This document shows positions 16,552 to 39,102 of a stretch of 41,544 nucleotides of DNA, piece after piece. The number at the start of each line of letters is the position of its first letter. Within the stretch, counting starts at the first letter, position 1. The translations under genes and the position numbers were made by a program. This DNA comes from Acidimicrobiaceae bacterium. GTDB taxonomy: Bacteria > Actinomycetota > Acidimicrobiia > Acidimicrobiales > RAAP-2. The notes under the pieces were generated by a model. That model had not been told where the DNA came from, did not search any database, and saw only the letters and a program-made list of their open reading frames with translations. The DNA lies in the NCBI GenBank assembly GCA_003136415.1, contig PLEI01000052.1, positions 1 through 41,544 of the forward strand. Direction: 5' to 3'.

Positions 16552-16565
16552 CGAATACTTGTTCG
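16552..16565 (+). promoter_or_regulatory. Candidate LexA (SOS) box upstream of ftsK
   Basis: CGAATACTTGTTCG, one mismatch to CGAAC-N4-GTTCG. Confidence 0.55.
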
Positions 16566-34546: not shown

Positions 34547-35253
34547 TGCTCAAGGTCGAAAGCGCGGTCGTACGTTACGGCCAGATCACCGCCCTGCACG
34601 GCGTGTCCTTTGAGGTCGATCAGGGTGAGATTGTCACTTTGCTCGGCGCCAACGGGGCGGGCAAGACCACGACGCTGCGCATGCTGTCGGGACTGCACAC
34701 CCCGGCGTCGGGCGTGATCTCCTTTGAGGGTCGCGACATCACCAAGGTTCCGGCTCATCAATTTGCCAACATGGGCATCAGCCACGTTCCCGAGGGTCGA
34801 CGAATCTTTTCGGTGATGTCGGTTGAAGAAAATCTTGACATGGGTGCCTTCGGCCGCAAGGACAACTACGACGACGACATGGAACGCGTCTACACGATGT
34901 TTCCCCTCTTGAAGGACCGCCGCAAGCAATTGGGCGGCAACCTGTCCGGTGGCGAACAGCAGATGCTGGCGATTGGTCGCGCACTCATGTCGCGTCCGCG
35001 CTTACTGTTGCTGGACGAACCATCGATGGGTCTGGCGCCCATGATTATCGACCAGATCTTTCGCATCATTGGAGAAATTCGCGAAAGCGGCACGACGGTG
35101 CTCGTGGTAGAGCAAAACGCCGCACAGGCCTTGAGATTGGCCGATCGTGGCTACGTCATGGAGAACGGTCGGATCGCCTTTACCGACGAAGCATCGGCCC
35201 TCTTGGATGACCCTCGCGTTCGCGCCGTGTACCTGGGCGAGACGATCGACTAA
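34546..35253 (+). CDS. livF: Branched-chain amino-acid ABC transporter ATP-binding protein (LivF type)
   Basis: [56 protein letters not shown]. Confidence 0.93.
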
Positions 35254-35897
35254 TTCGAAGTCTTGTAGCTTCGTAGTACCGACACGACTCGACCGAAGAG
35301 GACCACGTCGGCGGCGTCGAATTCCAGTGGCTCCATGGCGGAATTCTCGGGCTTCAGTACCACCCGGGAACCCTGTGGGTAGTATCGCTTAATTGTTGCT
35401 TCATTGTCAGGAATACCCGCGACCACGATCTCGCCCTTTTGCGCGGTGGCATCTCGTTGTACGACGACGTAGTCGCCGGGGAGGATGCCCGCCTCGATCA
35501 TCGATTCTCCGCGAACCTGCAGGACAAAACTCTCTCCTCGACCGGCGAACTGCTCGGGAAGCGACATGAACTCGTGATGGTTCTCGGCGGCGATGACCCC
35601 CGTACCCGCCGCTACGTCCCCCACGAAGGGAATCTGACGAATGGTCGTGACGCTCGCATCCGGAATTGAAGTGTCGGCGTCGAGGCGGACGGTGAGGGTT
35701 CGCGGCTGCTTCGGATTGCTTTCGATGTAGCCGGCCTTTTTGAGGACTTCGATGTGGTTGGCGACGGTCGCGGGGGCGTTGAGGCCGACGTGGGCCGCGA
35801 TTTCTCTGATCGTGGGAGGAAAGTTACGCTCGCGTTGGCAGGTGACGATGTACTCAAGGATCTTGCGTCGCATCGGGGTAAGTACTTCGGCCATCAT
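35250..35897 (-). CDS. lexA: LexA SOS repressor
   Basis: MMAEVLTPMRRKILEYIVTCQRERNFPPTIREIAAHVGLNAPATVANHIEVLKKAGYI; cleavage-site AAGTGV, catalytic GESMIEAGILPGDYVVV and QKGEIVVA; upstream GGAGG and LexA box. ORF-track start (35951) would include the operator. Confidence 0.95.
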   Translation of the reverse strand: MMAEVLTPMRRKILEYIVTCQRERNFPPTIREIAAHVGLNAPATVANHIEVLKKAGYIESNPKQPRTLTVRLDADTSIPDASVTTIRQIPFVGDVAAGTGVIAAENHHEFMSLPEQFAGRGESFVLQVRGESMIEAGILPGDYVVVQRDATAQKGEIVVAGIPDNEATIKRYYPQGSRVVLKPENSAMEPLEFDAADVVLFGRVVSVLRSYKTSN

Positions 35898-35907
35898 TCC
35901 TCCATCA

Positions 35908-35921
35908 CGAACAGTTGTTCG
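35908..35921 (-). promoter_or_regulatory. LexA box (autoregulatory) in lexA promoter
   Basis: CGAACAGTTGTTCG (+ strand), perfect CGAAC-N4-GTTCG. Confidence 0.9.
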
Positions 35922-35922
35922 T

Positions 35923-35951
35923 ATGTTAGGGCAGAATGCGTGCTCTGGCAA
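35923..35951 (-). promoter_or_regulatory. lexA promoter
   Basis: Minus strand TTGCCA (35951-35946) - 17 nt - TAACAT (35928-35923). Confidence 0.65.
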
Positions 35952-35962
35952 ACACCTGTTCG
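35949..35962 (+). promoter_or_regulatory. LexA box upstream of MoxR/VWA operon
   Basis: CAAACACCTGTTCG, one mismatch to CGAAC-N4-GTTCG; core identical to the box at 38101. Confidence 0.75.
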
Positions 35963-36010
35963 TCTTTTTTTCAGATGATGCCCGACAGTTGGGACTCCCG
36001 AGGAGGCGCG

Positions 36011-36739
36011 ATGACCGAGAAGGAAATGCCGATAGGGGAATGCTGGAGCGACGTGACTGACGTCTTGGCGGCGGGTGTTGGCCGAATCCTCCTCTACGGA
36101 CCCCCAGGCACCGGCAAGACGTACGCAGCGCTCAAGCTCGGCCTCATCAAGGGGATCTCGGAGCGTCTGGTCTGCACCGAGGACCTGACAACGGGCGAGA
36201 TTACTGGCACGTGGATGCCCGCGGGTGCCGGCAAATGGGAATGGCGCGAAGGTCCGGCCATTCGAGCGTGGAAGAGCAATGCCGGGCGCGGTGGACGACT
36301 GGTGGTGGACGAAGTCGACCGTGCGTCGGGTGACGCTCTCAGTACCTTGCTCGCAATCACGGACTCCGCCGACTCAGCGCGATGGCGCAATCCCGAGACG
36401 GGCCAGTGGGTGAAACCCGGACCCGATTTCTCGGTGGTGATGACCACGAATATCGAGGACCTGGAGGATATTCCCCTGGCGTTACGTGACCGATTTCCGG
36501 TGTCGATTCGCATCGACCGACCTCATCCCAACGCGGTGACTTCATTGAGCGACGACTTGAAGGAACCTGCGTTGCACGGGTCGGTCGGAGACTCCAACCG
36601 GCGAGTGTCGTTGCGAAGCTTCTACGCCTTTGATCAATTGCGCTCGCACTTAGGGGCACCTCGGGCGGCCCGTTTACTCTTCGGCGAGACCGCCGGCCAA
36701 GCCATCCTTGACGCGCTGTCCATTGGGTCCCTGGAGTGA
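36011..36739 (+). CDS. MoxR-type AAA+ ATPase
   Basis: SD gaggagg then ATG 36011; Walker A GPPGTGKT, Walker B RLVVDEVDR, sensor-1 VVMTTN, Arg-finger-like ALRDRFPVSI. Confidence 0.88.
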   Translation: MTEKEMPIGECWSDVTDVLAAGVGRILLYGPPGTGKTYAALKLGLIKGISERLVCTEDLTTGEITGTWMPAGAGKWEWREGPAIRAWKSNAGRGGRLVVDEVDRASGDALSTLLAITDSADSARWRNPETGQWVKPGPDFSVVMTTNIEDLEDIPLALRDRFPVSIRIDRPHPNAVTSLSDDLKEPALHGSVGDSNRRVSLRSFYAFDQLRSHLGAPRAARLLFGETAGQAILDALSIGSLE

Positions 36740-38076
36740 CGCGGGCGGTGTACCCGGAACTCGTTCACGGTCGTCGCGACGGCTTCGAACAGGGCTCCTG
36801 GAGTGTCGAAGTTGGATCGGTCTTTCGCGGAGGGGCGAGCTGTAACTTGACCGAGCGCTCCCTTAAGGTGCCTGACGGCAGTGACGACGTGTCGCGCGTG
36901 GTGCGCGCGCACGAATTAGTGCACATTCGCGTCAGTCCCTTCATGAGTGCACATGCGCCGACGGACCCTGAGACTTTCGAACGGGCCGTGGAGTGCGCCG
37001 AGGAGTACCGGGTAAACTTTCTGCTCTCGATGTTGGGATTCGACACCGGCCTGCTGTGCGACGGGACCGAGCGATTGGGTGGTCAGCGTATTGCCCAAAT
37101 GGGTCAGTGGGGAGAAGCGGCATGTTTCTTCCTGGCGGTCCTCGGCACGGGAGCCGAGTCAAACTATCTGCGCGGAATTCGCTCCTCGCAACCGTCGTGG
37201 CCCGCCGGCTTGCGAGCCATCAAGAAACGAGTGCTCGCCATCGTGGCGGGACTCGACGCAGTCCAAATTGGCGACACCACCTTGAACGATGATGGCTTGC
37301 CCCGCGGATTTCACAGCGTTACCATTCCGATTGCCCGTCTCCTCAGCCGCTCGATGAGTGCCGCCGCGCCCGAGGGCCCCGACGCTCTTCGCGTCTTTCG
37401 CCGTTCACTCGAACCAGGGGGGCGTCGCGCGCCTAGCGCGGTATTTGCTCCCTTGGTCTTCGACGATTCGATGACCTACGTCACACGGCGCCGCCATCGC
37501 GCACACCGTCGCGCCCGCCCGGCGGAGTGCGGCACCGTCATGCGTTATCCGAGCCGTCTCTTGATTGACCCAATGCAACGCGCTTTCGCCCGCAAGACGC
37601 CCGCCACGGGGGGAGTCATCGTGATTGATCAGTCCGGCTCGATGGATGTCACTGTCGAGGAGCTGGACGGACTCTTGGGCAATGCCCCCGACGCGCTCAT
37701 CGTGGGTTACAGTCACCGGCCGGGCGATACCGGCGAGACGCCGAATGTCTGGCTACTCGCCGTGGATGGTCGAGTGGCGAGTCAGGCACGTACCGGGAAC
37801 ATCGGCAACGGCGTCGACGGACCGGTCCTGCGGTGGGCAGCGCGCACCGCCAATCCCTGTGAGCCGATCATTTGGGTCACCGATGGACAGGTCACCGACT
37901 CTCACGATCACCCGTGTCACAGCCTCTCGGTACAGTGTGCCCAAATGGTTCAGCGACACCGAATTCGGCTGGTTCACAGCCTCAGCGAGGCGGAGTTGGC
38001 TCTACGAGGCCGTCGGGTCACGGGGGGTTCCTTTGGTCGGGTGGGACGTGAATTGCAGATAATCCGGCGAGGGTGA
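36736..38076 (+). CDS. VWA-domain protein with N-terminal HExxH metallopeptidase-like region (resembles DUF2201 architecture)
   Basis: GTG overlaps MoxR stop (GTGA); RAHELVHIRVSP (HExxH) followed by ECAEEYRVNFLL; MIDAS VIVIDQSGSMDV (DxSxS) and IIWVTDGQVTD. Confidence 0.75.
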   Translation: MTRAVYPELVHGRRDGFEQGSWSVEVGSVFRGGASCNLTERSLKVPDGSDDVSRVVRAHELVHIRVSPFMSAHAPTDPETFERAVECAEEYRVNFLLSMLGFDTGLLCDGTERLGGQRIAQMGQWGEAACFFLAVLGTGAESNYLRGIRSSQPSWPAGLRAIKKRVLAIVAGLDAVQIGDTTLNDDGLPRGFHSVTIPIARLLSRSMSAAAPEGPDALRVFRRSLEPGGRRAPSAVFAPLVFDDSMTYVTRRRHRAHRRARPAECGTVMRYPSRLLIDPMQRAFARKTPATGGVIVIDQSGSMDVTVEELDGLLGNAPDALIVGYSHRPGDTGETPNVWLLAVDGRVASQARTGNIGNGVDGPVLRWAARTANPCEPIIWVTDGQVTDSHDHPCHSLSVQCAQMVQRHRIRLVHSLSEAELALRGRRVTGGSFGRVGRELQIIRRG

Positions 38077-38093: not shown

Positions 38094-38122
38094 TTGCGAA
38101 CGAACACCTGTTCGCTTATACT
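38094..38122 (+). promoter_or_regulatory. Promoter of LysM gene
   Basis: TTGCGA (38094-38099) - 17 nt - TATACT (38117-38122). Confidence 0.75.
38101..38114 (+). promoter_or_regulatory. LexA box 1 of LysM gene (inside -35/-10 spacer)
   Basis: CGAACACCTGTTCG, perfect CGAAC-N4-GTTCG. Confidence 0.9.
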
Positions 38123-38124
38123 TA

Positions 38125-38138
38125 CGAACAAGTGTTCG
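38125..38138 (+). promoter_or_regulatory. LexA box 2 of LysM gene (just downstream of -10)
   Basis: CGAACAAGTGTTCG, perfect CGAAC-N4-GTTCG. Confidence 0.9.
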
Positions 38139-38162: not shown

Positions 38163-38600
38163 GTGGCTGCAGTGGAGTTGTTCCCCAGCGAGTATGAGTA
38201 CCGCGAGTCGTCACGTCCGACCCTTCGCCTGATGCCTGATGTCTGCGAAGTTCCTCGGTATCGCCGTGGTCCCTTGGTGGCAAACCGTCGGGCCGCGCGG
38301 GCGCGTATGAAGCTCCGCCGCCGCCGTAGCGCTCTCGCCGTGCTCGTACTAGCTAGCCTGGTGTCGCTGGCGTGGCCGGGACACGCCTTTGGTGGCACGA
38401 ACGGCGTGGGGCTCTCAACGGATCTGGCCTCGAGTTCCACTCTGTCGTCGGGAATGGTCTACGTCGTCCAACCCGGTGACACCCTCGCGACGATTGCGCG
38501 AACGCTCAATCCGGTGAATCCCTCAGTGGCCCGATCAGCACTGGTCGCTGAGTTGGACGCCAGTGTCGTCATCACTGGCGAACACGTCCTAATCCCTTAA
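38163..38600 (+). CDS. SOS-controlled single-TM LysM protein (candidate YneA/DivS/ChiZ-like division inhibitor)
   Basis: GTG 38163 with SD aaggag; basic region then TM (ALAVLVLASLVSLAWPGHAF), C-terminal LysM (MVYVVQPGDTLATIARTLNP...GEHVLIP); located between lexA region and nrdR. Confidence 0.75.
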   Translation: MAAVELFPSEYEYRESSRPTLRLMPDVCEVPRYRRGPLVANRRAARARMKLRRRRSALAVLVLASLVSLAWPGHAFGGTNGVGLSTDLASSSTLSSGMVYVVQPGDTLATIARTLNPVNPSVARSALVAELDASVVITGEHVLIP

Positions 38601-38631: not shown

Positions 38632-39102
38632 GTGCGTTGTCCATTTTGTTCCGCCGACGACGACCGGGTGGTCGATTCGCGTCTCGCGGAGGATGGCGTG
38701 GCGATTCGTCGACGACGCGAGTGTTCCGCCTGCAACCATCGGTATACGACCTTTGAGCGTATTGAAGAGGTCGGACTCTACGTGACGAAGCGATCTGGTG
38801 ACCGTGAGCCTTTTGAGCGCTCCAAAATCCTTTCGGGGATCCGCTCCGCCTGCAAGAACCGTCCGGTTGATGAAGCGCGCCTCGACGCAATCGCCGAGTC
38901 GGTCGAAGAGGCGATGCGTCTGCTCAATCGCGACGTGACCAGTGAAGAGGTGGGGATGGCCACCCTGGATGCCCTGCGCGACGTGGATGACGTGGCGTAC
39001 GTGCGCTTTGCGTCGGTCTACAAGGGATTTGAGGACGCCAACGACTTCGCTCGTGAGATTGGCATGCTGGTCAAGACGACGGCTCCCAAACTCCGGAGTT
39101 AA
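38632..39102 (+). CDS. nrdR: Transcriptional repressor NrdR
   Basis: MRCPFCSADDDRVVDSRLAEDGVAIRRRRECSACNHRYTTFERIEE (zinc ribbon + ATP cone). Confidence 0.96.
   Translation: MRCPFCSADDDRVVDSRLAEDGVAIRRRRECSACNHRYTTFERIEEVGLYVTKRSGDREPFERSKILSGIRSACKNRPVDEARLDAIAESVEEAMRLLNRDVTSEEVGMATLDALRDVDDVAYVRFASVYKGFEDANDFAREIGMLVKTTAPKLRS

Follow-up and report, generated by a model that had tools for sequence, protein, structure and literature searches.

AAA+ ATPases of the AAA_5 subfamily coupled to a VWA partner are known from NorQ/NorD, CbbQ/CbbO, and midasin. Two-gene cobST clusters are widespread in phages, and their cobT is often annotated as a peptidase (PMC8651126). Couples of MoxR and vWA proteins have also been proposed as switches of conflict systems (PMC7159879). 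Here we describe a MoxR-type ATPase gene (moxR) and an adjoining gene for a predicted zincin-VWA protein, located between lexA and a lysM-nrdR segment in a 41,544-nucleotide stretch of Acidimicrobiaceae DNA (hereafter, the window). The pair matched no curated protein family, in agreement with the first-pass annotation, which had considered it a candidate undescribed module. The family is real and phage-type, apparently without a named function in the libraries and literature searched.

The moxR-VWA locus and its two products

The features of the locus are listed in Table 1. The two open reading frames (ORFs), their 4-nt overlap (GTGA, 36736–36739), the LexA-type box, and the motifs GPPGTGKT, VVDEVDR, HELVH, EEYRVN, DQSGS, and TDG, all reported by the first-pass annotation, were present in the window, and the placement of the pair between lexA and the LysM/nrdR segment was as described there and conserved. 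The order lexA, moxR-VWA, lysM-nrdR recurred within the genus and in the divergent locus L127, and was thus not a peculiarity of a single genome; lexA was the neighbor of moxR-VWA in some loci, not in all. The conserved moxR start is the ATG at 36011. An in-frame ATG further upstream (35936) was ruled out as the start, since the alignment of homologues begins at 36011.

Table 1 Features of the moxR-VWA locus in the window.
Feature	Position	Strand	Remarks
lexA	35250..35897	-	TIGR00498, 184 bits
LexA box 1, CGAACAGTTGTTCG	35908..35921	none	Perfect box; assigned as lexA operator; lies between box 2 and lexA
LexA box 2, CAAACACCTGTTCG	35949..35962	none	Position fixed to lexA, not moxR; assigned as second lexA operator
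Conserved leader element CCGACAGTTGGG (consensus GCGACCGTTGnG) of the moxR-VWA operon	35982..35993	+
MoxR-superclade AAA+ ATPase gene (moxR)	36011..36739	+	242 aa; AAA_5; relatives midasin, NorQ, CbbQ
Predicted zincin-VWA protein gene	36736..38076	+	446 aa
HELVH codons, residues 59–63	36910..36924	+	Predicted zinc-binding helix
ECAEEYRVN codons, residues 86–94	36991..37017	+	E90, predicted third zinc ligand
DQSGS MIDAS motif of the VWA domain, residues 298–302	37627..37641	+
lysM LexA box	38101..38114	none
lysM LexA box, second	38125..38138	none
LysM-type protein gene (lysM)	38163..38600	+	LysM match under Pfam cut-off; SOS neighbor
nrdR	38632..39102	+	Assigned from sequence and position

The ATPase matched the AAA_5 profile with 61 bits (cut-off, 22), and its best solved relatives were midasin, NorQ, and CbbQ. 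It contains Walker A and B motifs, and its structural model (pLDDT 86) has the helix-2 hairpin insert (E66–72/E75–80) of the MoxR superclade. The profile of MoxR proper (AAA_3, PF07726) reached 21.1 bits against a cut-off of 27. Based on sequence and model, we place the ATPase in the midasin/NorQ/CbbQ (AAA_5) branch. A PADLOC search returned only weak, short P-loop AAA matches for it.

The N-terminus of the VWA protein is predicted to be gluzincin-like, with HExxH in one helix and E90xxxN94 in the next. In its model (pLDDT 88), HExxH lies in helix 51–66 and ECAEEYRVN in helix 82–99, followed by further helices and then the VWA domain. The zincin-like reading of the first-pass annotation depended on conservation of HExxH and its co-location with EEYRVN in a predicted fold, and both held: the residues are conserved and lie in adjacent helices of the model, with H59, E60, H63, E90, R92, N94, D298, S300, S302, and D383 invariant in 30 genus homologues. 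Sequence and model therefore agree on a conserved HExxH with a candidate third ligand in the following helix, as in zincins. HExxH was intact in 63 of 68 homologues, every one of which had Asp or Glu at position 90, and broken in the other five, where residue 90 is A twice and Q, T, or C once each. This joint loss, seen in two or more separate regions of the tree, is the strongest indication that a single metal site is formed by H59, H63, and E90. The zinc site is thus probably real. Proteolysis would not be the sole function of the family, because some viral homologues have lost the site. As for the VWA domain, the fold and a DxSxS MIDAS are both present, DQSGSM being invariant, but GNGVDG stands in place of the usual threonine loop of the MIDAS.

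No Pfam or NCBIfam family was found for the VWA protein. The DUF2201 profiles (PF13203/PF09967) gave no match, and hhalign joined it to DUF2201 in the VWA part alone (probability 75.5%); membership in DUF2201 was rejected by the profile search and, outside the VWA part, by hhalign. The CobT profiles of Pfam and NCBIfam matched neither the VWA protein nor its viral relatives. PADLOC returned no match for the VWA protein, and assignment to a known anti-phage defense system was rejected on this ground. A Foldseek search of the PDB with the model gave no match at E ≤ 0.001, the best fold match being a weak one to the NorQ-NorD VWA complex entry, and a PDB profile search with the VWA alignment gave nothing useful (best E 0.025, an unrelated kinase-like protein).

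Operators of lexA and lysM

The genome contains 16 sites with at most one mismatch to CGAACANNTGTTCG, among them those of recA, ruvC, and a SRAP gene, compared with one site for the reversed control, indicating that this is a genuine SOS box type. At up to two mismatches, the window held 25 boxes against 23.7 expected, which is no excess. One further SOS-type box with one mismatch (CGAACAAGTATTCG) lies at window positions 16552–16565.

Sixteen distinct loci have lexA adjoining moxR in divergent orientation; the second box was scored in 15 of these. Its distance to the lexA start was 50–57 bp (sd 2) in the 15 loci, versus 35–273 bp (sd 61) to the moxR start. Both boxes, with the same 41-bp step, were kept at all nine genus lexA genes that do not adjoin moxR. 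Other families of the order have lexA and lysM/nrdR in divergent orientation with no moxR in between; often three or four boxes are present, and the second box is again commonly CAAAC....GTTCG. No convincing LexA box was found in 52 moxR upstream regions without a lexA neighbor: four sites had at most one mismatch, two of them in the truncated loci L012 and L125, and the remaining two read CGAACCTTGATTCG and CGCACGACTGTTCG.

The first-pass annotation had considered the pair, with the box at 35949–35962 in its promoter region, to be probably part of the SOS regulon. This was not borne out by the neighbor-swap genomes and the spacing statistics. Because the spacing and persistence of box 2 follow lexA, and the box is missing at moxR operons without lexA, SOS control of the pair is unsupported as a conserved feature; no box is conserved with the promoter of moxR itself. 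Judged by these comparisons, the box is a real LexA-type box and the second operator of lexA. LexA could still influence moxR in this strain, though not as a conserved design. A damage-response role of the pair would need evidence beyond the 35949 box. Nothing on the pair emerged from literature searches that combined LexA with MoxR or addressed LexA/SOS in Acidimicrobiia.

Where the locus sequence extends that far, the lysM gene retains its own two boxes with practically no exception, and it looks as if lysM, not the MoxR pair, is the SOS-controlled gene here. The lysM boxes are 24 bp apart (38101–38138) and are kept across the genus. On the simplest reading of the compared sequences, an older divergent SOS promoter was split by the insertion of moxR-VWA, with the operators of lexA on one side and those of lysM on the other.

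Phage relatives, distribution, and a shared leader element

A profile scan of IMG/VR revealed 40 viral contigs with relatives (24–41% identity), with the ATPase gene directly upstream in 37 of them; adjacent homologous genes for both proteins thus occur as a two-gene module on contigs of uncultivated phages. Phage genes in their neighborhood include those for DNA primase, RecE-like exonuclease, integrase, and WhiB. Among PHROG families, phrog_33218 (unknown function) and phrog_16448 (ATPase) matched the two proteins of the window, and the ATPase also matched phrog_249 ("porphyrin biosynthesis") at a score well below that of phrog_16448. PLSDB plasmids and INPHARED phages gave no tblastn match. 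In maximum-likelihood trees of both proteins, the cellular sequences formed two groups within the viral diversity; an Ilumatobacteraceae-type clade was nested among viral rows, and one viral row joined the genus clade in the VWA tree. Given midpoint roots and the length of several viral branches, we can only infer the direction from virus to cell. On these grounds we regard the pair as a phage-type module fixed on the chromosome of one Acidimicrobiaceae genus. The possible phage response mentioned in the first-pass annotation touched on something real in that the module itself is phage-type, as seen on viral contigs and in the trees.

The genus is represented in this analysis by metagenome assemblies. 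A single-sequence search found the VWA gene in the genome of the window and in 30 of 36 same-genus relatives, whereas 24 genomes of other families gave no match. When 398 genomes of the phylum were searched with a profile, the gene was found only in the genus. Across this genus the pair is syntenic with lysM-nrdR. In a named collection, the moxR-VWA-lysM-nrdR order occurred mostly in Acidimicrobiaceae and actinobacterial metagenome assemblies. The actinobacterial locus is also present on contigs whose titles name Saccharibacteria, Bifidobacterium breve, or Acidobacteria (L085, L132, L076, L094), which are probably mislabelled or mixed assemblies. In L127, a divergent relative with 39% identity, lexA adjoins the pair. 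The acIV/Ilumatobacteraceae-type contigs form a group that is 33–43% identical, with a different neighborhood and a conserved third gene, which was not found in the genus (search without a positive control). In loci L131–L140 of this type, the third gene has a marginal TY-Chap match, and a second VWA gene and an N-acetylglucosaminidase gene are often added. A clean natural absence is seen in one genus member, G005 (95% complete), which retains lexA, lysM with both of its boxes, and nrdR but has no pair between them; another short ORF occupies its place before the lysM boxes (L168:15674-16278).

The leader element GCGACCGTTGnG was present in 56 of 59 moxR leaders at ≥8/10 matches (shuffled, 2/59), usually 20–40 nt ahead of the moxR start, with or without an adjoining lexA. 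At the same threshold it preceded a gene for a TrwC-domain relaxase-like protein in 30 of 30 sampled genomes (shuffled, 2/30) and was found in all 22 sampled leaders of a VirB2-type operon (shuffled, 1/22), three of which had first been found through the motif and the rest chosen by their VirD4-like gene. The operon comprises VirB2/TrbC-like, TraG_N-like, VirB4-like, and VirD4-like genes, and the Pfam matches in the transfer genes were TrbC/VIRB2, P-loop_TraG, and T4SS-DNA_transf. The trwC-like gene was present in 37 of 37 genus genomes. None of the lysM, nrdR, pigL, dinB, and lexA leaders contained the element at ≥9/10; a high "liv" count and two "vwa" matches in this comparison arose from negative slice coordinates in truncated loci and were left out. 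The element was also found ahead of some integrase-like, ArdC-like, and short ORFs, and may therefore belong to a broader class of promoters or leaders. Its interpretation as a stem-loop (CGACC-GTTG-GGTCG) was dropped, as many leaders cannot pair in this way. Excisionase-like ORFs, too, are preceded by the element in some genomes (L291–L318).

The loci examined (L203, L204, L206, L208, L211–L240, L271–L290) contain the genus-wide chromosomal trwC-like gene, convergent with a VirD4-like gene, and the VirB2/VirB4/VirD4-like operon, both with the element. A gene for a tandem-WYL protein lies directly upstream of the trwC-like gene. Its stop codon abuts the trwC-like leader element in L206:261-2213 and L203:10486-12432. 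The protein looks like a fused PafBC-type regulator; that a PafBC-type protein controls the leader element is only an idea. The shared element suggests, at the level of sequence, a link of the moxR-VWA pair to DNA transfer. G005 lacks the pair yet has retained both the trwC-like gene and a gene of VirD4 type, so the transfer genes do not strictly depend on the pair.

Proposed function and comparison with known systems

The explanation that we consider best overall, with a probability of roughly 0.55, is that a phage-family AAA+/HExxH-VWA pair became fixed on the genus chromosome, where it would act as a processing metalloprotease, has no LexA box conserved with its own promoter, and would be expressed with transfer genes and not the SOS regulon. 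The pair would most likely work as other AAA_5-VWA couples do: the ATPase would form a ring, the VWA MIDAS would capture and hold a client protein, and ATP hydrolysis would remodel it. Unlike in NorQ/NorD or CbbQ/CbbO, a zincin domain attached to the partner would then clip the client, resulting in a small ATP-dependent processing metalloprotease. The chromosomal copy would descend from a phage module inserted between two lexA and two lysM operators, and it may, more tentatively, be expressed through GCGACCGTTGnG together with the conjugation-like DNA-transfer genes of the genus and not with the SOS regulon. The AAA+/VWA coupling follows from knowledge of the family, and the zinc site is supported by its joint loss; proteolysis, the client, and the DNA-transfer role are predictions of decreasing strength, in that order.

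A possible, though doubtful, proposal is that the client is the DNA-transfer apparatus of the genus (TrwC-like relaxase and VirB2/VirB4/VirD4-like proteins), a machine that the pair would assemble, mature, or disassemble under a common regulator acting via the leader element. It would account for the same element at three operons across the genus, the trwC-like gene in every genus genome, and the Pfam matches of the transfer genes; against it, the element is found at other genes too, G005 retains the transfer genes without the pair, and the viral relatives are not beside transfer genes in the loci read. Bolder still, and unlikely, would be a phage ATP-dependent metalloprotease domesticated on the genus chromosome to serve a hitherto unrecognized DNA-transfer regulon that spans the genus, comprises homologues of relaxase, pilin, VirB4, and VirD4, and has a new cis element as its mark. 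Improbable is the SOS effector envisaged by the first-pass annotation, in which LexA at 35949–35962 would repress moxR-VWA and DNA damage would induce it for proteolysis or remodelling. In the window, the end of the box lies 49 bp ahead of the moxR start, where LexA could act in this strain, and the pair lies between lexA and the SOS-boxed lysM, but the position of the box is tied to lexA, and moxR operons without a lexA neighbor have no convincing box.

Both remaining explanations draw on phages, and we consider each of them improbable. One regards the pair as a CobS/CobT-like chelatase partner boosting a cellular CobN-type chelatase, as proposed for phage cobST, and would fit the widespread phage cobST clusters with their often peptidase-annotated cobT (PMC8651126) and the phrog_249 match of the ATPase. 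CobT profiles of Pfam and NCBIfam, however, matched neither the VWA protein nor its viral relatives, phrog_249 scored well below phrog_16448, and the conserved HExxH and E90 point to metal binding by the VWA protein itself. The other sees a captured phage module turned against phages, which might serve in superinfection exclusion, for instance, or as a switch of a conflict system, the role proposed for MoxR-vWA couples (PMC7159879); the phage provenance of the pair and the third gene of the Ilumatobacteraceae-type loci, with its marginal TY-Chap match, speak in its favor. Here, however, a third component or variable effector is absent, the PADLOC results amount to weak AAA matches for the ATPase, and within the genus the pair is vertically syntenic, with a single loss documented, and does not form a patchy island.

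Phages and bacterial chromosomes share this family of AAA+/VWA couples, in which the zinc site co-evolves, and because natural variants either keep or lack the site, the role of proteolysis can be tested. The comparative data correct an attractive SOS assignment that they do not support, and through the conserved leader element the pair is linked to an apparently vertically inherited DNA-transfer apparatus of the genus.

With the MoxR-vWA ternary conflict systems (VMAP, iSTAND, FtsH, beta-propeller; PMC7159879), the pair shares the couple of a MoxR-like and a vWA protein, but it has no third component in the window, and bpMoxR scored 11.3 bits against a cut-off of 27. It resembles MoxR with DUF2201 (PF13203/PF09967) in having an N-terminal HExxH..[DE]xxxN and a C-terminal VWA beside a MoxR-like ATPase, but PF13203 did not match and the profile-profile alignment covers the VWA alone, at the probability given above. 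Phage CobS/CobT (phrog_249 being CobS) is likewise encoded by phage-borne adjoining AAA+/VWA genes; the present pair differs in lacking a CobT profile match, in keeping the zinc site in most members, and in matching other PHROG families best. Finally, NorQ/NorD, CbbQ/CbbO, and midasin are like the pair in ATPase subfamily and VWA partner, and the VWA complex entry of NorQ/NorD is the best, albeit weak, fold match of the partner. Neither nitric oxide reductase nor Rubisco genes were found next to the pair, and its partner, in contrast to those of all three, has a predicted HExxH/ExxxN zincin domain.
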